From positions 1 to 22,749 of IMG/VR virus record IMGVR_UViG_3300032285_004742: a stretch of 22,749 nt of DNA. One strand, given 5' to 3'. The notes beneath the pieces were generated by a model. It made no database searches and was not told where the DNA came from. It was given only the letters and a program-made list of their open reading frames with translations. Below, in pieces: positions 6,826 to 22,749 of the stretch (position 1 is the stretch's first letter; each line of letters begins with the position of its first letter). Source of the DNA: a virus. The position numbers and the translations under genes were made by a program.

Positions 6826-7116
6826 ATGAGCAGATTGATTTTCTCTGAAGATGTGGATTCGTTTGGCTTGCCTCAGTTTGAGGATGAACCCCTACGGGTA
6901 GGTCTTCAATCGTCGCATCAGTATGCTCAGGCCCTTAAAATTCTTCAGAACCTCCCTGATCGAGAGATGGGAAACCAGAAATGTGCAGTTGAGGAACTCA
7001 GGCAGGCAGGTCTTAATGAGATGGCTCAGAAAGTGAGTCAAATTTCTGCCAACGAATACCATGATTTCATCGCCAAAGAACTCGCCAAAGAACTCGACGA
7101 CGAAATCGAAAACTAA
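6826..7116 (+). CDS. Small protein with VDSFGLP leader
   Basis: 96 residues, M-S-R-L-I-F-S-E-D-V-D-S-F-G-L-P at the start, then a polar helical body and an acidic end with a K-E-L-A-K-E-L-D-D-E repeat. ATG 6826 is chosen over TTG 6790 because AGGG (6815-6818) is 7 bases upstream and the leader then begins near residue 4, as in its relatives. The 26 bases at 6847-6872 are identical to 8265-8290. Function is unknown; it shares only the leader with the next two genes. The gene ends 15 bases before the next start. Confidence 0.75.
   Translation: MSRLIFSEDVDSFGLPQFEDEPLRVGLQSSHQYAQALKILQNLPDREMGNQKCAVEELRQAGLNEMAQKVSQISANEYHDFIAKELAKELDDEIEN
6847..6872 (+). repeat. 26-bp exact repeat, copy 1
   Basis: Identical to 8265-8290. 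It encodes E-D-V-D-S-F-G-L-P in both genes. Identity at third codon positions as well suggests recent copying, or selection on the DNA. Confidence 0.85.
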
Positions 7117-7131
7117 AAAAAGGACATGACG

Positions 7132-8244
7132 ATGAGATTAATGGAAGACGTGAATGAGTTTGGAATTCCTGGCCTAGAAGAAGCGAGAGTGAACTGGAAG
7201 GGTCTGCTTCAAAAGCTTTTAGCTGCATCGGAGTTGCATCTAGCGATTCTAGCTGGGTCGGCTGACGAGGGAGAAGAAGATCCTTTAGCTGCGACCGTTT
7301 CAGAGGTGAAGGCTGCGATGGAGCCTGAGGCAGAGCCAGAGGCTGAGTCTCCTGAAGCTGAAGAAGCTGACGAAGAACAAGATGCTGACGAAGAACAAGA
7401 TGCTGACGAGGAAAAAGGCGAAACCGTAGAGGAAGCAAAAAAAAAGACATCACTCGATGATGAGGCCGATGAGCTTCTGAAAAAGTTCTCCAAAAAAGTC
7501 CCTATTGAAAAAGTAGTGGCACAACAGGGCATCAAAGAAGTTGAGATTGATGGCCACGTTTACAGTTACGGTGGCCGGGAGCTTTCCGTTAGCACCGACG
7601 ATCATGTCTTCATTTGGAATGTTGATTCCTATGGCGATCGTCATTACTACTTGCTGTTTGACATTCAAGACATGGGCGGTAAGTCAGTGAGCGAATCAGT
7701 TGAAAAGGCCACCCAAGACCTCTCTGTAGAAGACATGGCCAAGACCAAGAAAAAACTCTCAGAGATGGCTACTGCTCGCTCAACGATTAAAAAATATGAA
7801 GCGTTGAAAGACAAGAAGATGTGGACGAAGCAGGAGATTTTAGGGGTATCCCATCAAATGAGTGGCTTGGACTCAGGCTACAAGAAGGATTCCATGGATG
7901 AGGAGTTAAAATACATTCTCCATGAGCTTGTGATGATGTTTGAAGAGGGTAAGACGGTTCAGATTAGCCCTGAGCAGTCTCAAGCAGGGATTGATTGGCT
8001 TAAAAAAAACGTCATCAATTCCAAAGGTGAGTTGAGAGACACTGGAATGGTTCGAAACGCAGGCTTCACCGAGGAGCACGCTGAGATCATTAAGGACTTT
8101 GATCATTTTGAACTCGTCGGTTTTCACCATGATGAGCATTCTCACTCTTATGCACCGATTTACCGCACGCTGGCTAAAAATGGGGATCACTTTGATTACA
8201 GTGTAGCCGGTGGTTGGGGTGGAGCCTCCATCGAGATTCATTGA
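7132..8244 (+). CDS. FGIP-leader protein with acidic linker
   Basis: 370 residues from ATG 7132, which has AAGGA at 7 bases; the ATG at 7126 is too close to that site. The leader is M-R-L-M-E-D-V-N-E-F-G-I-P. Residues about 45-110 are extremely acidic (Glu/Asp/Ala), partly encoded by an 18-bp tandem repeat. A folded region follows, with V-E-I-D-G-H-V-Y-S-Y-G-G, a helical stretch, and a C-terminal part rich in His (F-E-L-V-G-F-H-H-D-E-H-S-H-S-Y, then G-G-W-G-G-A). I recognise no enzyme family. A DNA-mimic or cargo role is conceivable from the acidity but unproven. The next gene starts 8 bases after its stop. Confidence 0.75.
   Translation: MRLMEDVNEFGIPGLEEARVNWKGLLQKLLAASELHLAILAGSADEGEEDPLAATVSEVKAAMEPEAEPEAESPEAEEADEEQDADEEQDADEEKGETVEEAKKKTSLDDEADELLKKFSKKVPIEKVVAQQGIKEVEIDGHVYSYGGRELSVSTDDHVFIWNVDSYGDRHYYLLFDIQDMGGKSVSESVEKATQDLSVEDMAKTKKKLSEMATARSTIKKYEALKDKKMWTKQEILGVSHQMSGLDSGYKKDSMDEELKYILHELVMMFEEGKTVQISPEQSQAGIDWLKKNVINSKGELRDTGMVRNAGFTEEHAEIIKDFDHFELVGFHHDEHSHSYAPIYRTLAKNGDHFDYSVAGGWGGASIEIH
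7366..7416 (+). repeat. 18-bp tandem repeat encoding A-D-E-E-Q-D
   Basis: Two exact units (7366-7383 and 7384-7401) and a decayed third. They lengthen the acidic linker in frame. Confidence 0.75.
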
Positions 8245-8252
8245 GGTGTGAA

Positions 8253-9242
8253 ATGTACTTTACAGAAGATGTGGATTCGTTTGGCTTGCCCGAGCTTGCT
8301 GAGGATTTTAAAACCTCAGCCAAGCGATTCCAAGATCAGGGAGCAGAGAAGGCTGAGGTGGATCAAGTCCTTGCGTTGTTCAAGGAGTTGAAGCCTAAAA
8401 TTAAGGACAACACGCAGAAGGATATTGATCGCTGGAAGAGTTGGGATGAGTTTAAGACCTTCGTGAATGATCTTAAGGGAGTCAAAAGCAAGGGACAGGA
8501 GAAGAAGGAGAAAAAAGAAGCAGGTGCGAAGCTCGTGGTTGAGGATAAGTACTGGAAGGTTTACCACATCACCTCTCACGATGCAGCGATGCTGTATGGA
8601 TCAGGCACGAAGTGGTGCATCACGCAGTCGGGTGGAGGCTACTGGAAAGATTATTCTTCTCACAGTGAGTTTTACTTCTACATTTCAAAGCGTTTATCTC
8701 CGAAATCACCGTTTTATAAGATTGCCCTTCAGCACGACTTAAATGATGACTCTTATCAGTTTTGGGATGCAGGGGATCAATCTCATGGACATACGGAGCG
8801 TGAGTTTTGGGATCAGAAGAAATTAGGGGGAATTCCATTTAAGCTGCCAGAGATTCCAGGTGAGCACATTCAAGCTGCGATAAACTCCCGTGAGTTCATA
8901 GATGAGCAGATTTACAATCTATTTTCAAATTGTGCGATGGATACTTATGAAGATCGTGCTTTGGATAAAGAAATTAAGATCAATGGCACACGCATGACGA
9001 TTCGAGAGTTTTTGAACACACCCAATTTGGATGTAAAGGGGAATTTGCATCTCTATGACACGCCGATCACGTCCTTGCCTAATGACTTGAAGGTGGGTGG
9101 GAATTTGGATCTCCGTGGCACGAAGGTCACGTCCTTACCTGATGGCTTGAAGGTGGGTGGGAGTTTGGATCTCCGTGGCACGAAGGTCAAAAAGGATGAT
9201 TTCAAAAAGCCTCCAGGAGTCAAGGGTGAGGTTCTTTTTTAA
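8253..9242 (+). CDS. VDSFGLP-leader protein with G-T-K-W-C-I domain and Leu-rich repeats
   Basis: 329 residues. ATG 8253 has GAGG 6 bases upstream (8243-8246) and puts the leader at residue 1 (M-Y-F-T-E-D-V-D-S-F-G-L-P); the frame also stays open upstream to 8214. Residues about 85-100 are Lys/Glu-rich. Then comes a domain with W-K-V-Y-H-I-T-S and Y-G-S-G-T-K-W-C-I-T (about 107-130), a motif known to me from uncharacterised phage proteins, often together with the kind of repeat found here. The C-terminus has three 20-residue Leu-rich repeats (G-N-L-D-L-R-G-T-K-V-T-S-L-P type), which usually bind proteins. L-P-E and L-A-E directly after the leader would fit cleavage by a gp21-type protease. 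Function unknown. Confidence 0.78.
   Translation: MYFTEDVDSFGLPELAEDFKTSAKRFQDQGAEKAEVDQVLALFKELKPKIKDNTQKDIDRWKSWDEFKTFVNDLKGVKSKGQEKKEKKEAGAKLVVEDKYWKVYHITSHDAAMLYGSGTKWCITQSGGGYWKDYSSHSEFYFYISKRLSPKSPFYKIALQHDLNDDSYQFWDAGDQSHGHTEREFWDQKKLGGIPFKLPEIPGEHIQAAINSREFIDEQIYNLFSNCAMDTYEDRALDKEIKINGTRMTIREFLNTPNLDVKGNLHLYDTPITSLPNDLKVGGNLDLRGTKVTSLPDGLKVGGSLDLRGTKVKKDDFKKPPGVKGEVLF
8265..8290 (+). repeat. 26-bp exact repeat, copy 2
   Basis: Identical to 6847-6872 and in the same position relative to the coding frame of the leader. Confidence 0.85.
9039..9218 (+). repeat. Three 60-bp units encoding 20-residue Leu-rich repeats
   Basis: The units are 9039-9098, 9099-9158 and 9159-9218. The last two are nearly identical through G-x-L-D-L-R-G-T-K-V, which suggests recent unit duplication. 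The third changes after K-V into a Lys-rich ending. Confidence 0.8.
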
Positions 9243-9389: not shown

Positions 9390-12300
9390 ATGGCAGTCAT
9401 AGATCAGGGTGGTCGGTTTCAATCAGTTAGAACGCCTGAGGAGTATGCAGAGTTATTTCTCAAAGAGATGGAGACAATGCCTCCTCAGGAGAGAGCGTTT
9501 GCTTTAGAGGTCTTAAATGACTTTCTTGCGGGTAACTCATCCCCTGCCCTCGAACTCTCGGCTCAAAGCATTTATAGAAGTGTTCCCTGTAAGATGGAAG
9601 AGTTTTTGAATAACCCATTTTATTTGGGGTCTTTTTCTAAGACGATTTTCCCAATTATCAAATCAGATCTGACTGAGATCTTTGAGGGTGGTTATTCTCA
9701 AGCTATTTTCGGAGGAAGCCTCGGAGGCGGCAAGAAACTTCCTTTGTCAAGCCATGTTCTAACGCCTATGGGTTTCAGGCAGATTCAGGATCTTTTTGTT
9801 GGTGATCGGGTTTGCAATCCAGATGGATCAGTCTCTGTGATCACGCATCTCCATGAGATCACCCTTGAGCAACAGTACATTTTTGAAATGTCGGATGGTC
9901 AGACCATTGCATCCTGTAAGGATCACCTTTGGTACGGCGGCTGGAGAAGGGATAAGAGCGATCCCTGTAAGAGTTGGGACAACCCGAATTGCATTAAGAC
10001 TACGAAGCAGATCTTTGATCAAACAGAAAAGCAGAGATCTCTGAATGATTCAAAAAGGCTTTTTAAGATACCCATTACTGAGCCTGTAGAGCTAGATGAT
10101 ATCGGCGGGAGGACTCTCGATCCTTACCTTCTTGGATACATGCTCGGTAATGGTGAGATTTCTTCGAGAAGAATTAAGCTCACCGTAAATGCTTCTGATT
10201 ATCCCTTTTACAAGCGCATCGCTGATGAGATCGGAAGTCACTACGACACTGACTTTAGAAAGCATGGGAAGAATTGCTTCGAGATCTCTTTTAGTGGGCA
10301 AACTAGGCTTGATCTGATCGAGGCACTCAAAAAGATTTCACTATTTGACCGTGATACGCAGACTAATTTTGTACCCGATTGCTATAAATACGCGCCCAAA
10401 AATGTCAGGCTCGCTATTCTTAGGGGACTTCTGGACAGTGATGGATCAGTAGACAAGTCATCTGGCAAGGTCAACTTTTACAGCACAAACAAAAAGCTTG
10501 CAGAAGATGTGCAGTGGCTTGCCAGATCTCTTGGATGCTTCTCTACGATTCGGAAAAGAAAAGGCAGGCAGCGTGAGAGCGCGGACGGCTCGAAAGTTTA
10601 CCAGTGCGCTGATAGCTACGAGGTTTACATTCGGAACAGAGATAGTTCCAATCTGTTCATGCTTGAGAGAAAAAAGCGGAAGTGCCTAAAGCCCACAAAT
10701 CAGCTCTATAATACCGTTTTGAATGTCAGACTGGGCGAGGTTGTCCCGATGAGATGCCTTACCATATCTCATCCGAACGGGTTGTATCTGACCGATGATT
10801 TTACGGTAACTCACAATACCACAGCGGGTGTAATTGGCATTCTCAGAATGATCTATGAGGTTTCTTGTCTACACAGTCCACATGAGATTTATAAAATATC
10901 TTCATCGGATTATATCAGTTTTCCCTGTGTCTCTACTACCGAAGCTGTAGCTGAGAGAAACATTATCGACAAGATCAAGGCAATTGTCTCCGAGTCAGAG
11001 TATTTCCAGAAACATTTCAAGCCAGAAAAAATTTCCATGGCTCAAGGAATTGTATTTCCAAACAGAATTATTATTCCTCCCGGCGCATCCACATCTCAGC
11101 AAATTGTGGGGTCGAATGCCATGGGATGTTTCGTGGATGAGTCAAATTTCTTTCAAAATCGCCAACAAAACACAGATCGCATGGGAGATACAAAAGAAGG
11201 GGTCGAAGTGATCTATGAATCCATTAAGCGAAGAATGGAGTCCAGGTTTCTCAATCAAGGTAAGCTACCTGGAGTTATTCTGATTTGTTCATCCAAGACC
11301 AGCCCAAACTCTTTCACTGAGCGTTTGATTCACAAGCACAAGGATGATCCTCGCACTTATGTGAAAGAGCGTGCGGTGTGGGAAACGGTTCCGAAGGGTC
11401 GATTCTCGGGTAAGACATTCAAGGTTGCCATTGGTGATGAGACGCGAATGTCAAAGATTTTGGTCGAAGGCGAACCAGAGACAGAAGGAATGAACGTCAT
11501 TGATGTGCCCGTGGAGTTTAGGCAGGCATTTGAAGACGATATTGACATGAGCATCCGCGATTATGGAGGTCGCTCGACGGTTTCAATCGCTCCGTTTATC
11601 GCCAAGCGCGAGAAGATTTATGAGTGCATTGATAAGACGAGAGTGCATCCGTTTAATCAAGAGGTCTGGGAGCAAAACCTACCGGGTGTGGTGGATTGGT
11701 CAAAACTCTGTAAATTGAAATCAGATGGCACCTATGAGCCGCTTCATCACCCCCATGCTCCTCGACACATTCACTTAGACTTATCGAAAAATCAGGACAG
11801 AACGGGTATTACGGTTTCTTGTATCGGAGGCTACGCTCCGGTGAACCGATTTGGAAAATCAGACACCGAGATGGCTCCCGTGATCCATGTGGATTTTATG
11901 ATCGCCATTCAGGCAGCTCGGGGCGGTGAGATCATTTATTCAGAAATCAGGAAGTTGATCTATGAGTTCTCTCACCATGGGTTTTTCATCAAGCTCGTCT
12001 CAGCCGACCAATTCCAATCCCTTCAAATCCTTCAATCCATGCGTCAGCAGGGATATAAAACGGAGATCGTCTCGGTTGAACCAGCGGGGGGGCCTTATGA
12101 ACTTTTAAAACAGGCTCTCTATGAGAACCGAATTTCCATGTACCCCTATGCTCCCATCATTAAGGAGCTCAGGGAGCTTCAAAAGAATTCCAAAACAGGG
12201 AAGGTCGATCACCCGGCTGCAGCCCAAGGGGGACGCAAGGATATCTCCGATGCGCTAGCAGCCTGTGTAGCTACTCTGACTAAAACCTCGTATGGCATTA

Positions 12301-12557
12301 CGGATGAGCCTGTGGTGAGTCGCCCGAGCGAACTTTTCACTGAGAACGAGGATGAGTGGATCTTAGAGGGGATGCTTGCTCAATCCCAGAGTCTCGATTC
12401 CTCCCCTGAGTGGAGACAAAACGTTGAGGTTGATTCTGGACAAAATGTCAATTCTCATCCAGAGTGGAGACAAAATGCGGAGAAATCTCTGGAACAAGAG
12501 CAAGGCTCCCACTATGATTGGAAAAGAAATTTTAACATGCCGTTTTTGATGGGTTAG
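9390..12557 (+). CDS. terL: Terminase large subunit, interrupted by a class 3 intein
   Basis: 1055 residues as encoded; removing the 361-residue intein (116-476) leaves 694. It is the motor ATPase and nuclease that packages DNA through the portal. Walker A is split: G-G-S-L-G-G-G-K (108-115) joins T-T-A-G after splicing. Walker B is C-F-V-D-E (580-584), followed by the coupling motif L-I-C-S-S-K-T-S. The RNase H-like nuclease has acidic residues D797 (H-L-D-L-S), D873 (S-A-D-Q-F) and D954 (D-I-S-D-A-L). The C-terminus holds three 18-residue W-[RK]-x-N repeats. No good Shine-Dalgarno is near the ATG; a GGGAG 14 bases upstream is inside the preceding hairpin. The portal gene follows after 7 bases. 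No small terminase gene is seen. Confidence 0.93.
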   Translation: MAVIDQGGRFQSVRTPEEYAELFLKEMETMPPQERAFALEVLNDFLAGNSSPALELSAQSIYRSVPCKMEEFLNNPFYLGSFSKTIFPIIKSDLTEIFEGGYSQAIFGGSLGGGKKLPLSSHVLTPMGFRQIQDLFVGDRVCNPDGSVSVITHLHEITLEQQYIFEMSDGQTIASCKDHLWYGGWRRDKSDPCKSWDNPNCIKTTKQIFDQTEKQRSLNDSKRLFKIPITEPVELDDIGGRTLDPYLLGYMLGNGEISSRRIKLTVNASDYPFYKRIADEIGSHYDTDFRKHGKNCFEISFSGQTRLDLIEALKKISLFDRDTQTNFVPDCYKYAPKNVRLAILRGLLDSDGSVDKSSGKVNFYSTNKKLAEDVQWLARSLGCFSTIRKRKGRQRESADGSKVYQCADSYEVYIRNRDSSNLFMLERKKRKCLKPTNQLYNTVLNVRLGEVVPMRCLTISHPNGLYLTDDFTVTHNTTAGVIGILRMIYEVSCLHSPHEIYKISSSDYISFPCVSTTEAVAERNIIDKIKAIVSESEYFQKHFKPEKISMAQGIVFPNRIIIPPGASTSQQIVGSNAMGCFVDESNFFQNRQQNTDRMGDTKEGVEVIYESIKRRMESRFLNQGKLPGVILICSSKTSPNSFTERLIHKHKDDPRTYVKERAVWETVPKGRFSGKTFKVAIGDETRMSKILVEGEPETEGMNVIDVPVEFRQAFEDDIDMSIRDYGGRSTVSIAPFIAKREKIYECIDKTRVHPFNQEVWEQNLPGVVDWSKLCKLKSDGTYEPLHHPHAPRHIHLDLSKNQDRTGITVSCIGGYAPVNRFGKSDTEMAPVIHVDFMIAIQAARGGEIIYSEIRKLIYEFSHHGFFIKLVSADQFQSLQILQSMRQQGYKTEIVSVEPAGGPYELLKQALYENRISMYPYAPIIKELRELQKNSKTGKVDHPAAAQGGRKDISDALAACVATLTKTSYGITDEPVVSRPSELFTENEDEWILEGMLAQSQSLDSSPEWRQNVEVDSGQNVNSHPEWRQNAEKSLEQEQGSHYDWKRNFNMPFLMG
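9735..10817 (+). mobile_element. Class 3 intein with LAGLIDADG motifs in TerL Walker A
   Basis: 361 codons. The first residue is K116 (K-L-P-L-S-S), not Cys, Ser or Ala. The WCT triad of class 3 inteins is present: W181 in D-H-L-W (block B), C456 in R-C-L-T (block F) and T474 in V-T-H-N (block G). The +1 residue is Thr. Block B lacks the usual T-x-x-H threonine. Endonuclease motifs are L-L-G-Y-M-L-G-N-G (247-255) and L-R-G-L-L-D-S-D-G (344-352). In place of the acidic residue of a catalytic LAGLIDADG motif the first repeat has Asn254, so one active site may be impaired. Confidence 0.9.
12402..12557 (+). repeat. Three 18-residue repeats at the TerL C-terminus
   Basis: The Trp codons at 12411, 12465 and 12519 are exactly 54 bases apart. 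The repeats read S-P-E-W-R-Q-N-V, H-P-E-W-R-Q-N-A and H-Y-D-W-K-R-N-F. They probably form a flexible docking tail. Confidence 0.85.
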
Positions 12558-12564
12558 AGGCAAA

Positions 12565-14790
12565 ATGGGAATCGGTTCACAATCAGTCGAATTTATTAGG
12601 CAGTTTTTTCGTCAGTCGGAGTTTCATCGTCCGCCCTACACTCCAGCGAATGCCTACGGTGGAATTTCCACAAATGCTCCTTATTTTTCCTACGGCATGA
12701 GCTCGGGTTCTCTGCAAGGAATCACCGATTATCTGCGAGTGGATTCAGACTTAGTGGGTCGATACATTGACGCAGAAGACATGGATGATTCACCCCTAGT
12801 GGCTTGTGTGACAGGGGATACCCTCGTGCGAACGCTTGAGCGGGGAAACGTCAGCATTGAGGCGTTGGCTCAAATGTATTCTCAGGGCGAAAAATTCAAA
12901 ATTCTTGCGTTTGATACTCAATCTCAGGAATTCGTGATCGCGGATGCTCATCATCCACGCAAGACCAAAACGGATAAAGTCATTGAGATTGGTTTTAATG
13001 ATGGTTCAGTTTTAAGATGCACCCCAGATCATAAGATCATGCTGTGGGATCAGACTTACAAAGAAGCAGGGACTCTGTCTATTGGAGAAAGTGTTATTTG
13101 CTCTTATGAATCTCATAGGGTTGCAAATTATGTGGTTTCGATTCGAGATGCAGGCATTGAGGATGTTTACGATCTCACGACGGATGTTTATCATAACTTT
13201 ATTGCAAATAACATTGTGGTTCATAACAGTGCTCTCGACATCTATGCAGATGATTCCTGTATCGTAAATACAGAGAGTGGAAAATCGGTTTGGGTGGAAT
13301 GTGAAGATGAAGATATTCGTGAGGAGTTAGATCACTTACTTCATAAAACACTTTTAATCGAAGAGCGGGTTTGGGGTGATATTAGACAGCTTTGCAAGTA
13401 TGGAAATTTGCTCATCGAGCAAGTGGTGAAGGATCGTGTGGGAGTGATTGCGATCAACTCTCTGCCGCCTCCGACCATTCGCAGGATTGAAGTTCCTAAG
13501 CAAATTGGGCAAGACCCCAATCAGCCCCAGGAGGAAATTCACTGGGATACGCTGGGATATATTTATGATCCCAGAGGGGTGTTTAAGATTAACACCAAAC
13601 AGTTTATTGATGAACTGAAGTACCGCGTGACGGGTGAGATGAGTTCAGGCGATAAGCCCATGGGGGTTCAGGTTTTCGAGGGCTGGGAAGTCGTTCACAT
13701 GCGACTCATGGGGAAGTCTCCTCATTCGATCTATGGGTTCTCCATCACTGAGCCTGCACGATGGATTTTTAAACGACTCCTATTGTTAGAAGACTCAATC
13801 ATTTTGCACAGATTAAGTCGAGCGCCTTCTCGATTTGCTTTTTATGTGGATGTGTCAGGGGTTCCACCCAATGAGACGGGAGCTTATTTAAATCGGGTAA
13901 AACAGGGGTTAAAAAAGCAGAAATTTGTCAACCCTAACCAGTCACAGAAACTTGACCAGAAATATCATGTTTTGAATAGTGAGGATGATTTCATCTTGCC
14001 GGTTCGAGATGGCAAGGAATCGACTCGGGTGGAGACGCTGCAAGGGCCGATTTATGATCACATTGAGGACATTAAGTTCTTTGAGAATAAGTTATTTGCA
14101 GCCTTAAAGGTGCCGAAACCCTTTCTGACTTATGAGGAATCCACGGCTAAGTCTCATTTGTCGGCTGAGGATGCACGGTTTGCTCGTACGATTTTGAGGG
14201 TTCAGCGTGAGTTTCGAAATGGGATGAAGAAGATTTGTAAGACCCATCTCGCTGCCAAGGGGATTAACCCAGAGAGCATTGATTTTGATGTGTGTATGAC
14301 GATGCCTTCGGCCATCTTTGAGCTCTCGCAGCTTGAGGTCAGGGCTGCCGAGCTTGAGCTTGCCTCCAAGTATGACGGATGGGCAAACAAGTACTGGATT
14401 AAGACTCATGTCTTAGGTTGGTCGGATGATCAGATTCGGGAGAGCGATCCTCAGTTTAATTCCGACAAAGAAGGGATGCCTGAGCCGACTCCGTCCAGTG
14501 GAGCGATTGCCAAGGCTCTCGCGGGTCGTGGTGAGCGTAAATCCTCCTCTTCTGATTCAGCCCCCCCGAGTGGGGATGACACAAAAGTCGTTGCCACGGA
14601 TGCTGAAACGGTGGGCTCGCAGGTGGCCTCTCAACAATCGGGGTCTAATGTGATTCTCAGTGCCGTGAGAAGGAACACGGAGAAGCTTCTGGAGCGCATT
14701 GAGAATTTGCATAACAAAACGTCTGACAAAAAGTGGAACGAAATTAAAGAGACGTTGAAAGATATTCGACACACGATTGAACGCAAATAG
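12565..14790 (+). CDS. Portal protein (T4 gp20-like), interrupted by a mini-intein
   Basis: 741 residues as encoded, 600 after removal of the 141-residue intein. The dodecameric portal sits at one capsid vertex, nucleates head assembly and is the channel for TerL. After splicing, M-D-D-S-P-L-V-A joins S-A-L-D-I-Y-A-D-D, a hallmark block of gp20-type portals. Other gp20 signs are G-F-S-I-T-E-P-A-R-W-I-F-K, R-A-P-S-R-F-A-F-Y-V-D-V and the S-E-D-D-F-I-L-P-V-R-D-G-K-E block. The last 100 residues are polar, Ser-rich, then helical. A short AGG lies about 5 bases before ATG 12565. Adjacent terL supports the call. Confidence 0.93.
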   Translation: MGIGSQSVEFIRQFFRQSEFHRPPYTPANAYGGISTNAPYFSYGMSSGSLQGITDYLRVDSDLVGRYIDAEDMDDSPLVACVTGDTLVRTLERGNVSIEALAQMYSQGEKFKILAFDTQSQEFVIADAHHPRKTKTDKVIEIGFNDGSVLRCTPDHKIMLWDQTYKEAGTLSIGESVICSYESHRVANYVVSIRDAGIEDVYDLTTDVYHNFIANNIVVHNSALDIYADDSCIVNTESGKSVWVECEDEDIREELDHLLHKTLLIEERVWGDIRQLCKYGNLLIEQVVKDRVGVIAINSLPPPTIRRIEVPKQIGQDPNQPQEEIHWDTLGYIYDPRGVFKINTKQFIDELKYRVTGEMSSGDKPMGVQVFEGWEVVHMRLMGKSPHSIYGFSITEPARWIFKRLLLLEDSIILHRLSRAPSRFAFYVDVSGVPPNETGAYLNRVKQGLKKQKFVNPNQSQKLDQKYHVLNSEDDFILPVRDGKESTRVETLQGPIYDHIEDIKFFENKLFAALKVPKPFLTYEESTAKSHLSAEDARFARTILRVQREFRNGMKKICKTHLAAKGINPESIDFDVCMTMPSAIFELSQLEVRAAELELASKYDGWANKYWIKTHVLGWSDDQIRESDPQFNSDKEGMPEPTPSSGAIAKALAGRGERKSSSSDSAPPSGDDTKVVATDAETVGSQVASQQSGSNVILSAVRRNTEKLLERIENLHNKTSDKKWNEIKETLKDIRHTIERK
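12805..13227 (+). other. Class 1 mini-intein in the portal protein
   Basis: 141 codons, residues 81-221. It starts C-V-T-G-D-T-L-V (block A) and has T-P-D-H (block B), V-Y-D-L-T-T-D-V-Y-H-N-F-I-A-N-N (block F) and ends V-V-H-N with Ser as +1 residue. No endonuclease domain is present. All residues needed for standard splicing are visible. It breaks the conserved S-A-L-D-I-Y-A-D block right at its Ser. Confidence 0.93.
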
Positions 14791-14840: not shown

Positions 14841-17800
14841 ATGACAGAATCGGCATCTATTCTAGTTTTATTGCTTGAGGATTGGCTGAATGAAGTGCGT
14901 GTCATTCGGACCCGGCGTGTGTCTTCGCGTCTGAGGATGAAGCGAAAGCGGTATTACCGCAGGCGAAAGGCACGCATTAAGCGTCTAGCGCGATTGAGGC
15001 GACGAAAGCCCAAGGCAAAGAGAATGGCTAAGCGTCGGGCGATGATTCGGAAGCGATTACATATTAAGCCGGGAAGTCGGCGCAGGATTCGTCTAGCGTC
15101 CAGTGATCGGTTGGGAAATCTAATGGAGGGTAGTGGCGTGAAGAACACTCAGGACTTGATTCGGGGCTTTGAAAACGTGGTTCAACTCGTAGAGGAGCTC
15201 ACTCAAGTTCTTGGAAAGAAGAAACTCAGTGAATCCACCGTTAAAAAGGGGATTCTTCGTGAGGATTTCTTCCCGGCTGATTTGCCTGAGTTTAGAGAGG
15301 ACGCCTACCACTTGCATGAGGATTTTGAGGGGATTTTGGGCATTAAGAGACCTTTTGAGAAGAAGGCTGAGGATCATGATCATTATGCTCAGATGAAAAA
15401 AGACGCGAAAGCGTTAATTGAGAGTTTAAAAGCAGGCAGTATTGCAGAGGATGAGGCTCATCAGATATTGGCTCTCATGACGGAGAGTTTGGATCAAGCG
15501 GTTGAGACCGTGGTGAAGGAGTCTGCTGAGACGGGTGAGGATGAAACTCAAGCTGGTTCTTATGAAAAGTTAGCTCTTGAGCCGATGATGAAGAAATTAG
15601 CAGCGCATCCTGGGCGACTGATCAAGAAGGTTGAGTCAGATGAGGGTGAGTTAGTGAAGGTGATGAAGGCGACTCATCCCTCGCACGCGGGTTTAATCGG
15701 TATTCATCTTCATGATCCGTCTGAATCGGAAATTGAGGATGCCATTGAGCAGGCTTTCAAAGATGGATTTGAGTATGTCTGGGTTCATGCTGGATCTCAA
15801 GAAGAGGCAGTTCGCAGGCCATCGCGTGAGGCACCGGGTAAAGAGATGACTCCGGCTAAGAAGGCTGAGATGGGCAAGAGTCTGTCGGGTAAGTTTGTCC
15901 GCTCAGGGGATATGGAGACGGCCAAGAAAATCATGAAGCACTCAGAGCCTGAGATGCGTCACGAGGCTCAAGAAACCGACGCCCAGATGAGGGGTGTGGT
16001 TTTGTTGAAAGACGGTGTGTATTGTATTGAGCTCGATGAGAAGTGCATTGAGCTCAAGCACCAGGAACAAGGTCCGACCTGGCTCAATCATGAAGTTCTT
16101 TTTTACGTCAATGAGGATCAAAAGGCAGCCGACCTTCAGCCTGCGGAGTGGCATGATGAGGCTCAAAAAGATCAAGCCAAGGAACACTCCGAGAGTGCCA
16201 ATCCTGAAACCCGTAAGGTTGAAGAAGCAGATCTCTCCAAGCAGCATGTAGGTGCTCACGTTACTTTAGATGGTAAGCCTGCCATCATCTCTAATGCAGA
16301 CCCTTCTGGTAAGTTTGCTAAGGTGTCTCAAACTCCCTCCGGGCATTCAGTTGAGTTTAGCTGGGATGCTGTCGATCAGGTCATGAAAAAGGGAGGAGAG
16401 TTTAAAAGTGGGCCCAGGGAATCTGTTGAGGAAGCTTTCATGAAGCCACAGATTTTCAAATCAAAAGGGTTGGAAATTGATACTGCAGCAGGAAGTTTTG
16501 TGTTCCCTTCTGATGTGATCTCGTACTCAGGTCCAGACACAGATGACGCTCAGGAAATTAACAAGCTCTGGGATCAAATCAAAGACTATGTTGAAGTAAA
16601 AAAAGCAGAAGATGTTTATTCGATTAAGCATGTAAATGGATGGTTTGGTCGTCTGTCTGCGTCTGGTTACTTAGATTCGACGGATTATATCTTTGGGGAT
16701 TCTAAGGAAGAGGTTAAGGCTGAATTAGAACGTATCTATGGTGATGACGATCCAGAACCAACGGATGAGTCCAAGAAGGCGAAAAAAGAAGACGCCATCG
16801 GCGGCGGATCTTACCCTCCAGGAGAAAATCCGATGAAGGAGCCTGAAGCTGAAATGGCTCAGACGGAAGACAAAAAAGTTGTTGCCCGTTGGGAGTCGAA
16901 ATCTGGCAAGCATTGGGTAGAGTTGTGTCAGTATGATGATGGTGGATTTGGATTTAGGTCTCCAGATTCCGGTGGAGTAATGGCCGGTAAAACCATGGAA
17001 GATGCTCTTGCTGAACTTCAAAAGAAAATTGACGCTGGTTATTTTCAGCCTGATGCCGCAAAAACTTCAATGAAACGAGTTGAAGGCGCTGACGTGGCTT
17101 ATGTACCTGGGACTGCTCGTGCCATGAGAGGCATTCCAGAGGCAAAGCAGAAGGACGAGTCAAAGAAGGTTACCGCCATGTCCGTTGAATCTCATCCATT
17201 AAGCAAGCAGAGAGGGTTAATCGGCTCTGACCGAGAGAAGATCCGTGCTCTGAAGCCAAAGAATGCGATGTCAGTGAAGATCGGTGAGCAGACTTACGGA
17301 CTGGAGGAGGAGGCGAAGCCATTTTCTGAGCCTCGGGTTTATGTTGGTACTTATGGCAAGTATAACGAGGGCTCAATTGAAGGCAAATGGCTCGATCTGG
17401 AGGATTACGCCTCAAAAGAGGAGTTTCTCAAGGCATGTCAGGAGCTTCATCAAGATGAGTCTGATCCTGAGTTCATGTTCCAGGATTTTGAGGGATTCCC
17501 TGAGCAGTACTATGATGAAAATGGGCTCTCGGATGATCTTTGGGATTGGTTGAAGTTAAGTCACGAGGATCGAGAGCTGTTGCAAGTTTACCAAGATGAG
17601 GTGATCGGTGGGCAGGCCACCATTGAGCAGGCTCGTGAAGCGTTTCGGGGAAAAGCGAAGAGCGAAGGCGATTGGGCTTATGAGGATTTAGAGTCCTTAG
17701 GGGGAGTGGGCGAGCTACCTGAGGAAACCTTAGGTTATTTCCTTCACTTAAGCGAAACGGATATTCGAGTTTACGCAAACGATGAAGCGGATCACCTGGT

Positions 17801-18224
17801 GCGTGTCATGAGTGACGAGGAGATCGTTGAGAAGGCTGGGATGCAAGATGAGTATGAGAAGGCTCAAGCCGCTGAGGCGCTCTCAGATGAACTTGAGGAT
17901 TTAAGTGAGTATGACGAGGATGATTTAGAGCGCATCCAAGAAATTCAGGATGAGTTATCCAAACTGGGTGAAGTCGCAACCGTTGAGAAGGTTTTAGATT
18001 CAGCCCGAGATGAGGCTCTTTCAGAAATCTCAGATGAGGTGAAAAAAGAGCTCAAAGATGACGCCTTGGGGTATTTCGAAAAGCAGGGGTTTAAGCCTGG
18101 GGATTTAGTTAAAAACAATGTCATGAGTTTTGATTATGAAGCCTATGCCAAGGATTTAGAAATCAGTGGTGATTACACGTTTGTGCATCACGATCATGAG
18201 GTCTGGGTTTTCTCCAATCACTGA
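14841..18224 (+). CDS. Head-core-like multidomain protein with C-terminal ArdA domain
   Basis: 1127 residues. Residues 23-90 are extremely Arg/Lys-rich, like small basic prohead core proteins of T4-type phages (gp68-like), and the gene sits between portal and protease as those do. Residues about 110-240 are helical; 467-535 look like a small beta domain (G-A-H-V-T-L-D-G-K-P-A); 536-640 and 678-750 are further unnamed small domains separated by acidic linkers. From 831 on the sequence is ArdA: P-R-V-Y-V-G-T-Y-G-K-Y-N-E-G-S, G-K-W-L-D-L, D-P-E-F-M-F-Q-D-F-E-G, and D-Y-E-A-Y-A-K-D-L near 1098. ArdA mimics DNA and blocks type I restriction. About 125 acidic residues are inserted before its last block. 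AAGG about 8 bases upstream supports ATG 14841. Packaging in the head is inference. Confidence 0.82.
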   Translation: MTESASILVLLLEDWLNEVRVIRTRRVSSRLRMKRKRYYRRRKARIKRLARLRRRKPKAKRMAKRRAMIRKRLHIKPGSRRRIRLASSDRLGNLMEGSGVKNTQDLIRGFENVVQLVEELTQVLGKKKLSESTVKKGILREDFFPADLPEFREDAYHLHEDFEGILGIKRPFEKKAEDHDHYAQMKKDAKALIESLKAGSIAEDEAHQILALMTESLDQAVETVVKESAETGEDETQAGSYEKLALEPMMKKLAAHPGRLIKKVESDEGELVKVMKATHPSHAGLIGIHLHDPSESEIEDAIEQAFKDGFEYVWVHAGSQEEAVRRPSREAPGKEMTPAKKAEMGKSLSGKFVRSGDMETAKKIMKHSEPEMRHEAQETDAQMRGVVLLKDGVYCIELDEKCIELKHQEQGPTWLNHEVLFYVNEDQKAADLQPAEWHDEAQKDQAKEHSESANPETRKVEEADLSKQHVGAHVTLDGKPAIISNADPSGKFAKVSQTPSGHSVEFSWDAVDQVMKKGGEFKSGPRESVEEAFMKPQIFKSKGLEIDTAAGSFVFPSDVISYSGPDTDDAQEINKLWDQIKDYVEVKKAEDVYSIKHVNGWFGRLSASGYLDSTDYIFGDSKEEVKAELERIYGDDDPEPTDESKKAKKEDAIGGGSYPPGENPMKEPEAEMAQTEDKKVVARWESKSGKHWVELCQYDDGGFGFRSPDSGGVMAGKTMEDALAELQKKIDAGYFQPDAAKTSMKRVEGADVAYVPGTARAMRGIPEAKQKDESKKVTAMSVESHPLSKQRGLIGSDREKIRALKPKNAMSVKIGEQTYGLEEEAKPFSEPRVYVGTYGKYNEGSIEGKWLDLEDYASKEEFLKACQELHQDESDPEFMFQDFEGFPEQYYDENGLSDDLWDWLKLSHEDRELLQVYQDEVIGGQATIEQAREAFRGKAKSEGDWAYEDLESLGGVGELPEETLGYFLHLSETDIRVYANDEADHLVRVMSDEEIVEKAGMQDEYEKAQAAEALSDELEDLSEYDEDDLERIQEIQDELSKLGEVATVEKVLDSARDEALSEISDEVKKELKDDALGYFEKQGFKPGDLVKNNVMSFDYEAYAKDLEISGDYTFVHHDHEVWVFSNH

Positions 18225-18546: not shown

Positions 18547-18601
18547 AGCTTCATTTTCTCATCATCCATGACAATTTGTAAGTGTGTCAGGAAAGACCCT
18601 C

Positions 18602-19000
18602 ATGAATTCAACTAAAATGGTTCAATTAGCCCACGAATTAGCTCAAAAAGACGTGGACGTTGGGCAAGTTTGTCAGCAGTTTAATATTCACCGCGATGCG
18701 CTTCCGCACGCTCTGGCTCGGGAGATTCGTAATGGAAATCTTCTAGGGCTGTCGGGTAAAGATCTCACCCAACTGGGACAGAATGTGGGGGACCGAGTGC
18801 TTGGAAAAGTGATTGCAGCGAAAGTAGGAAGGGTTGACAAATTGTCACGCCTAAGTACAGCAAGTCAGCTTGCAGATGATCTTGAACGTTTACAAAAAAA
18901 GCTTCATGATCGTGTATTCAAGGGGAAGCCCGAGAGTCGATTGGTAAACAAAAGAAAAACTAAGATCCCTGGTTTTTCTACTTATTTTAGGAAATCTTAG
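18602..19000 (+). CDS. Small head-region protein, helical, unknown function
   Basis: 132 residues from ATG 18602, with AGGA 9 bases upstream; a GTG at 18584 lies before that site. The N-terminal third (A-H-E-L-A-Q-K-D-V-D-V-G-Q-V-C-Q-Q-F-N-I-H-R-D-A-L) could form a helix-turn-helix, and the rest is basic and helical with an R-K-T-K-I-P-G-F end. Position just before the protease gene suggests a minor prohead component, but there is no family match. Its stop is 2 bases from the next start. Confidence 0.7.
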   Translation: MNSTKMVQLAHELAQKDVDVGQVCQQFNIHRDALPHALAREIRNGNLLGLSGKDLTQLGQNVGDRVLGKVIAAKVGRVDKLSRLSTASQLADDLERLQKKLHDRVFKGKPESRLVNKRKTKIPGFSTYFRKS

Positions 19001-21652: not shown

Positions 21653-22749
21653 ATGGAACAGCGTAAATTACAAGAAACCAAATCAGATCTTTCTAACGAA
21701 GGATTTGTGAAAAATGCTCAGCGTGCAGCTCTGATTGAACGCTGGAATAAATGGCTTCCCATTAAGGATTCTCATGGCCGTGATTCTAAAATGAATCCTT
21801 ATTCGAAATACTGCCTCTCGCAGCTTTTCGAAAATCAACTCAATGAACTCAAAGGTTTCAGAGAAAAGCACATTCTCGGTGAAGACACCACCACCGTGAA
21901 CACTGCTCCGTTCATTAAGTACACTTTCCCTCTCTTGAGACGTGTGTGGCCTTCACTCATTGCTCCTGAGATCGTCTCGGTTCAACCTATGTCAGCGCCA
22001 GTCGGAGCTGTGTTTTACTTCGAATTGAAGTACGGCAACGACAAAGGTAAAGTTCACGCAGGCGATAAGCTGGTGAAGGATTTCAACCGCAACTACTCCT
22101 CTGAGTTTATTGACGGGGAAACCTTGGCCACTGCTGATGGTTCATCTGCTACTTTCTCAGGCACTTTGGCTTGGGGTCCAGTGCGTAACAGCACTCTAAA
22201 GGTTCAAGTCGGCACCGTCAGCGGTGCAGATGATGGAGCTGGCAACATCACTGGCGCTGGCATCATCTCAGGCTCAATCAACTACGTCTCAGGCGCAGTG
22301 AGCTTGCACTTGGCTGCTGATCCCGCCGCTGGTGTTCATGTGGTCTGCACTTATCAGTACTCATCCGAAGGTTCCTCTGAAGTTCCTTCCGTGAACATTG
22401 ATATCGCTCTCGTTGCAGTCACTGCTAAGAGCCGAAAAATCAAAGCTCTCTGGTCCTCAGAAGCTGCTGATGATTTGAAAGCTCTGCACGGCGTTGATGC
22501 TGAGCAGGAGTTGGTGGCAGGCGTAGGCTCAGAGCTTGCCCTGGAAATCGACCGAGAAATCGTTGAGGACATTCGTTTGGGTGCAACCGGCGCATCGGCT
22601 TCCTACTCATTGGCTCCCGTTTCTGGCCAGCGTGAGTTGGACACCGTTCGCGGAATGCTCACTCCGATGACCTTGATTGCTAATCAAATCGGAAAGAACA
22701 CCTTGCGCGGTCCTGCTAACTTCATGGTCATGAGCTATGATGCTGCTGC
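21653..22749 (+). CDS. Major capsid protein (T4 gp23-like), 3' end beyond window
   Basis: 365 residues are visible. A 77-residue polar N-terminal prosequence ends in I-L-G-E, followed by D-T-T-T-V-N-T-A-P-F and Y-T-F-P-L-L-R-R-V-W-P-S-L-I-A, the standard start of mature gp23-type capsid proteins. A beta-rich inserted domain (about 155-245, F-S-G-T-L-A-W-G-P-V, then I-N-Y-V-S-G-A-V) is usual in large myoviruses. A-A-D-D-L-K-A-L-H-G-V-D-A-E-Q-E-L is another conserved block. The frame is open to the window edge. AAGGAG (21635-21640) stands 12 bases before ATG 21653. It is the shell subunit, processed by the protease encoded just upstream. Confidence 0.93.
   Translation, partial: MEQRKLQETKSDLSNEGFVKNAQRAALIERWNKWLPIKDSHGRDSKMNPYSKYCLSQLFENQLNELKGFREKHILGEDTTTVNTAPFIKYTFPLLRRVWPSLIAPEIVSVQPMSAPVGAVFYFELKYGNDKGKVHAGDKLVKDFNRNYSSEFIDGETLATADGSSATFSGTLAWGPVRNSTLKVQVGTVSGADDGAGNITGAGIISGSINYVSGAVSLHLAADPAAGVHVVCTYQYSSEGSSEVPSVNIDIALVAVTAKSRKIKALWSSEAADDLKALHGVDAEQELVAGVGSELALEIDREIVEDIRLGATGASASYSLAPVSGQRELDTVRGMLTPMTLIANQIGKNTLRGPANFMVMSYDAA

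Follow-up and report, generated by a model that had tools for sequence, protein, structure and literature searches.

An ArdA-family domain at the C-terminus of a modular, prohead-core-like protein in a T4-type viral head gene cluster

The window analysed here, a virus fragment of 22,749 bp from IMG/VR, carries head genes in T4-type order: terminase, gp20 portal, a long ORF referred to below as the fusion ORF, an antisense ORF, a 138-aa ORF, S77 prohead protease and gp23 (Table 1). The fusion ORF is open end to end over 1127 codons, and its position between portal and protease, with gp23 following, is that of gp67 and gp68 in T4. A sequence-only reading had proposed that one frame joins a very basic N-terminus, in the slot of the T4 prohead core genes, to a C-terminal ArdA sequence. 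The continuous frame, the basic N-terminus (residues 20-86, net charge +36) and the slot, with the gp20 portal on one side and the S77 protease and gp23 on the other, were confirmed; the ArdA assignment and the joining of the two parts stood with the modifications described below.

Table 1. Features of the window, with positions in the 22,749-bp fragment and the basis of each assignment.
Feature	Position	Strand	Basis or conservation
ORFs sharing an N-terminal peptide tag	137-436, 6826-7116, 7132-8244, 8256-9242		Shared N-terminal peptide
Terminase large subunit with LAGLIDADG intein	9390..12557	+	Pfam, PHROGs
gp20-type portal with mini-intein	12565..14790	+	Pfam
Fusion ORF (1127 aa), with basic core N-module, middle modules and ArdA at the C-terminus	14841..18224	+	ORF list, Pfam/PHROGs, relatives
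N-module (residues 1-240), comprising an LLLEDWLNEVR helix, the basic run and a helical part	14841..15560	+	Conserved in L025 (63%), L121 (63%), L046 (49%)
Basic run, residues 20-86: 36 K/R, 0 D/E, net +36	14898..15098	+	Composition
Middle modules, residues 241-831	15561..17333	+	No Pfam/PHROG identity
Candidate T4-type (L/I)-x-E protease site, L-E-E, residues 821-823	17301..17309	+	Just ahead of ArdA
Front part of ArdA (residues 832-966; net charge -24), covering positions 1-131 of the 155 in the profile	17334..17738	+	Profile, alignment
Acidic helical insert in ArdA, residues 967-1089 (123 residues), net charge -26	17739..18107	+	Alignment, model, relatives
C-terminal helix and hairpin of ArdA (residues 1090-1127)	18108..18221	+	Alignment
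Antisense gene, 100 aa	18244..18546	-	Kept at equivalent place in L044 (42%, E=3e-21) and L121 (43%, E=2e-23)
138-aa gene between slot protein and protease	18584..19000	+	51-59% to nearest relatives
S77 prohead protease (1-200), insert and scaffold-like C-terminus, 870 aa	19003..21615	+	Pfam, PHROGs, relatives
gp23 major capsid protein, truncated by window end	21653..22749	+	Pfam

Several features of the neighbouring genes are of separate interest. Both terminase and portal of the window contain inteins, that of the terminase sitting within the GGGK/TT ATPase motif, while the portal of the relative L025 lacks one; a large intein-like insertion also lies right behind the 'GHLNHP' motif region of the prohead protease of another relative (L045:9442-12102). 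The antisense gene is flanked by the slot protein gene and the 138-aa gene, and a weaker match to it occurs at another place in the 149-kb contig of the relative L046. The protease/scaffold-like ORF of the window contains a middle insert of about 350 residues (about 263-617) that is missing from L044 and L046. In gp23, LGE/DTTT (residues 75-80, the slash marking the putative cut) would fit a (L/I)-x-E maturation site where the gp23 site is expected, and an (L/I)GE site at this position is conserved in the clade. The T4 late promoter TATAAATA had one match in the window, within terL, and none upstream of the fusion ORF, which is uninformative on timing.

The N-module of the fusion protein gave a weak AF2 model showing helices alone (pLDDT 59). 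Its densest basic stretch holds 34 K/R per 60 residues, compared to 24 in T4 gp68 and 25 in phiMAM1 gp68, and a similar run (24-35 K/R per 60) is present in the slot proteins of the T4-like relatives examined. T4 gp67 and gp68 share the portal-S77 protease slot with the fusion protein, and gp68 likewise has a strong basic run; however, they are only 80 and 141 aa long, carry no cargo and differ from the fusion in the order of basic and helical parts. No homology of the N-module was found to T4 gp68 (hhalign probability 0.7%) or to the LR756511 slot protein. As judged from sequence, the fusion protein is gp68-like in location and composition, without detectable homology.

Although N-module and ArdA lie on a single chain, they are not directly joined as the sequence-only reading had implied, since about 590 residues of other modules separate the 240-residue N-module from ArdA. 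Parts of this middle region recur in relatives: residues 241-315 are 70% identical to L121, residues 321-368 are 65% identical to the first slot ORF of L046, where they lie near the C-terminus, and the homology of residues 756-831 runs on into L044.

Profile searches of the C-terminal region identified ArdA. Residues 833-967 matched Pfam ArdA (PF07275) with E=2e-20 (74.4 bits, cut-off 27), together with a second, C-terminal piece, the C-terminal third of the fusion ORF matched the PHROG 'anti-restriction protein' with E=2.5e-23, and a sequence search with the ArdA region found the ArdA of Tn916 (ORF18, PDB 2W82; E=3.5e-5), with which the fusion shares sequence family, acidity and the YVGTYxKYN and DPEFMFQDFE segments. 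In an alignment with 22 ArdA proteins that stand alone, two segments of the fusion (residues 832-966 and roughly 1090-1127) are 33-62% identical to ArdA, with 57-62% to the nearest free-standing proteins, while residues 967-1089 form an insertion. The predicted ArdA is therefore not the simple domain originally described: ArdA is normally a lone protein of 160-170 aa, whereas here it ends an 1127-aa chain and is split by a helical domain. The whole region (residues 832-1127) has a net charge of -55, about half of it contributed by the insert.

An AlphaFold model of the ArdA region, based on the same 22-ArdA alignment, reached a mean pLDDT of 90 and a pTM of 0.74, and would place in succession the ArdA strands and helices, a bundle of long helices and the ArdA C-terminal hairpin. 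A Foldseek search of viral models (BFVD) returned an antirestriction protein as top match (E=7e-4, probability 1.00), with the ArdA of Vibrio phage phi-pp2 among the lower-ranked antirestriction matches; against the PDB, Foldseek gave nothing significant and did not match 2W82, an uninformative outcome in which the long insert helices probably dominate. Residues 992-1127 alone also matched Pfam ArdA (E=8e-7) and Tn916 ArdA, which raised the idea of a tandem ArdA. We rejected this arrangement in favour of a single ArdA with an insert, because residues 992-1090, lacking the tail, score like shuffled sequences and the model shows a helical insert. By its sequence, the C-terminus of the fusion protein belongs to the ArdA family, but not by its size or architecture.

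Scanning the ArdA alignment against 2.9 million viral contigs yielded 80 loci. With three exceptions, the complete loci are all free-standing genes with frames of about 160-270 codons; outside the present group, free-standing ArdA loci number about 85 in viruses and bacteria together. A search of a phage collection with the fusion protein found as sole match the lone ArdA of Shewanella phage Y11, and the ArdA loci found in a genome contig search were likewise all free-standing. In the three exceptions (L044, L045 and L046), ArdA with the same insert ends long ORFs in the portal-protease slot. L044 has a 5'-open ORF of this kind, followed by counterparts of the window's antisense gene and 138-aa gene, protease (66%) and gp23 (76%). 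L046, part of a 149-kb contig, encodes terminase, portal, a 1075-aa N-module ORF, a 948-aa ORF ending in ArdA with the insert, protease and gp23 (74%), and L045 a 927-aa basic-module ORF, a 496-aa ORF and a 1392-aa ORF ending in ArdA with the insert, then protease and gp23. The slot is thus divided into two ORFs in L046 and three in L045. As N-module and ArdA reside on adjacent ORFs in the 149-kb relative, a direct fusion of ArdA to the core module is not fixed in the clade, and the separation in both L046 and L045 indicates that it is unnecessary for the role of ArdA there. In a tree of 87 ArdA sequences the fused ArdAs cluster, but the free-standing, long-branch L107 falls among them; with moderate support, a single origin of the fused ArdAs was not upheld. 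L025 and L044, which come from one metagenome, were considered as two ends of one phage, but they lack sequence overlap and could not be joined.

Widening the set of relatives through searches with gp23 and the N-module revealed the basic N-module in seven of them (L025, L046, L121, L125, L142, L128 and L045). In the inner clade, with gp23 62-77% identical, slot proteins starting with the basic module span 927-2431 aa (L045, 927 aa; L046, 1075 aa; L128, 1216 aa; L121, 1791 aa; L125, 2222 aa; L142, 2431 aa; the slot ORF of L025 is cut by the contig end), while remoter T4-like contigs (gp23 about 40%) have a slot protein of 269-846 aa with a basic run of 24-34 K/R in 60 residues. What follows the N-module varies, and pieces turn up in different positions: L025 and the window protein have their first 235 residues in common (63%) and are unrelated in the remainder, phrog_1915 and Kyano_Gp96-like domains occur among L121, L142 and L125, and a domain of the tagged window ORF 7126 (see below) recurs within the 1392-aa ArdA-bearing ORF of L045 (E=3e-10).

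The insert occurs in more than one context. It is also present in L121, L125 and L142 (99.4% in a profile comparison with the ArdA-bearing version), but inside another outer domain that is not recognisable as ArdA, where the insert is preceded by a front of another kind and followed by a 'DGWAHFLSHYDGNYETT' tail. This domain, ending in DGWAHFLSHYDGNYETT..VYF, takes the place of ArdA at the C-termini of the L121 and L142 proteins and in L125:7053-8006, and is possibly a remote relative of the ArdA fold. A common insert in differing surroundings implies that the terminal domain was swapped or that ArdA diverged. On balance, we favour, if only slightly, the view that a prohead-core gene has come to encode a modular, 'polyvalent' protein whose cargo, ArdA in this case, can be exchanged.

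Four window ORFs and seven ORFs of relatives share, within their first ~22 residues, a peptide of the form E[SDGN][VL][DN]xFG[ILM]P (ESVDxFGLP type), also given more narrowly as E[SD](V/L)[DN]xFG(L/I)P. Among the relatives (L110-L114, L121), six of the tagged ORFs belong to the 149-kb relative, one of them comprising just 19-33 codons, and one to L121. The peptide is never internal in the window, the 149-kb relative or L121, and neither some 1500 ORFs of the remoter T4-like contigs nor some 3600 ORFs of unrelated contigs with ArdA contain it. Among the proteins that carry the tag are one resembling PcfJ (a weak match) and a GNAT+NUDIX protein of 870 aa (L112:505-3114). We infer that the tag is a candidate capsid-targeting signal of the T4 internal-protein kind, carried by possible injected effectors. 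In Microcystis phage Mel-JY01 (L030:13764-14930), a 388-aa protein encoded between prohead protease and scaffold appears ADP-ribosyltransferase-like by eye, making it a candidate for a T4 Alt-like protein.

For the fusion protein, we lean towards a reading in which a T4-like prohead-core protein has grown modular, is assembled into the core and trimmed by the protease, and is predicted to release ArdA for injection against restriction. The very basic N-module would assemble into the scaffold core, binding DNA or scaffold, and the protein would enter the prohead as a core part, like T4 gp67 and gp68. The neighbouring S77 protease would then trim the chain, possibly immediately before ArdA, and the acidic ArdA piece would be injected along with the DNA to occupy type I restriction (or BREX-like) enzymes ahead of any phage gene expression. 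Packaging and injection are plausible and consistent with the comparative evidence, which comprises the slot itself, the adjacent protease, the virion slot proteins of other phages and the lack of a second ArdA. T4 gp67 and gp68 are annotated as virion proteins, and slot proteins of PA5oct, a phage with a T4-type portal, as 'ESI-MS/MS, structural protein'. Moreover, no second ArdA was detectable in the 149-kb relative with the window protein as query, so that the slot ArdA would be the sole source in that phage. The internal proteins IPI, IPII and IPIII of T4 are injected anti-restriction head proteins (PMC12373910, PMC3012670).

An L-x-E motif lies no more than 20 residues upstream of ArdA in three of the four clade members and is missing in L046. 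Such sites make up 1.2-2.0% of positions, so this frequency is not significant; we rejected the motif as proof of processing and regard it as suggestive at most. Further observations count against this reading: N-module and ArdA are on separate ORFs in L046 and L045, the N-module shows no detectable homology to T4 gp68, the insert might disturb ArdA function, and the fusion lacks the N-terminal tag of the other candidate cargo proteins, although core proteins may need none.

Alternatively, ArdA might act in the producing cell as a late protein, whole or cut free, that inhibits restriction/methylation enzymes (antimodification) or BREX during assembly and is not injected. ArdA expressed from plasmids inhibits type I enzymes inside the cell, lone phage ArdA genes function without packaging, and an internal ATG at residue 810, preceded by a weak AAAG, could yield free ArdA. 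Yet this internal ribosome site is weak, ArdA resides within the head-assembly cluster beside portal and protease on four contigs, and a protein made only together with the head genes would come too late for the phage's own incoming DNA. We consider this role unlikely, though it is the better of the alternatives.

Somewhat less likely still is a structural use, in which ArdA, as an acidic DNA mimic, would partner the basic N-module or packaging machinery inside the core and have no anti-restriction role. The opposite charges on one chain (net +36 at residues 20-86, net -55 at residues 832-1127), the pairing of acidic gp67 with basic gp68 in the T4 core, and the presence in three relatives of a different acidic terminal domain that surrounds this insert in place of ArdA would all suit such a use; however, the ArdA signature, at 57-62% identity to the nearest free-standing ArdAs, is kept beyond what charge alone demands. 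Finally, although the separate N-module and ArdA ORFs in L046 and L045 would allow the window form to be a recent join, an artefactual or decaying junction left by misassembly or a chance deletion is very improbable and largely refuted, given that L121 (1791 aa) and L142 (2431 aa) each carry one ORF that extends from the N-module as far as the shared terminal insert-domain, that base composition is smooth along the intact fusion gene, and that a frameshift or assembly join, which the sequence-only reading had named as contrary evidence, is effectively excluded by the relatives.

Returning to the injected core protein, a broader and more tentative proposal, to which we give somewhat less than even credence, is that the core protein serves as a general delivery vehicle, with a basic module and exchangeable effectors, including ArdA, that are cut by the protease and injected, alongside separate ESVDxFGLP-tagged effectors (PcfJ-like, GNAT+NUDIX).

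Known systems share elements of this arrangement. Polyvalent proteins, the nearest concept already described (Iyer et al. 2017, PMC5512222), are multidomain proteins of mobile elements and phages; their listed domains include ArdA, and packaging is predicted for those phage members whose genes lie close to packaging genes. Like them, the fusion combines disparate domains in one mobile-element chain (a basic core module, several modules and ArdA, with exchange among relatives). However, polyvalent ArdA is found mainly in Firmicutes, together with ArdC-N, whereas the fusion belongs to a T4-type head cluster and has a gp68-like N-module and an insert in ArdA; Pfam gave no ArdC-N match in the fusion chain. 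T4 IPI-III and Alt embody the shared idea of head-packaged, injected proteins directed against restriction or modifying the host, but are encoded by separate genes and bear a short N-terminal capsid-targeting sequence, whereas the fusion is untagged and is itself a core-slot protein. The DarA/Hdf proteins of P1 resemble the proposed fusion role as a head-associated defence against restriction; they are unrelated to it and attach to the inner face of the capsid (PMC12810830), and P1 is not T4-like and has no ArdA in its system. In the literature searched, we found no description of an ArdA encoded within a T4-like head cluster, or of one fused to a module resembling a prohead core protein. The novelty claimed in the sequence-only reading, that no ArdA-head protein fusion had been described, thus holds within that literature, but the general idea was published in 2017 (PMC5512222).

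If the proposed pathway is correct, a prepackaged inhibitor of type I restriction would remove the timing problem that arises when anti-restriction proteins are made only after DNA entry; within the literature searched, it would be the first ArdA of the prepackaged kind. The modular core protein would also supply a list of uncharacterised domains that make promising candidates for counter-defence proteins delivered by injection, and the ESVDxFGLP tag at the N-terminus would provide a handle for finding more such proteins.
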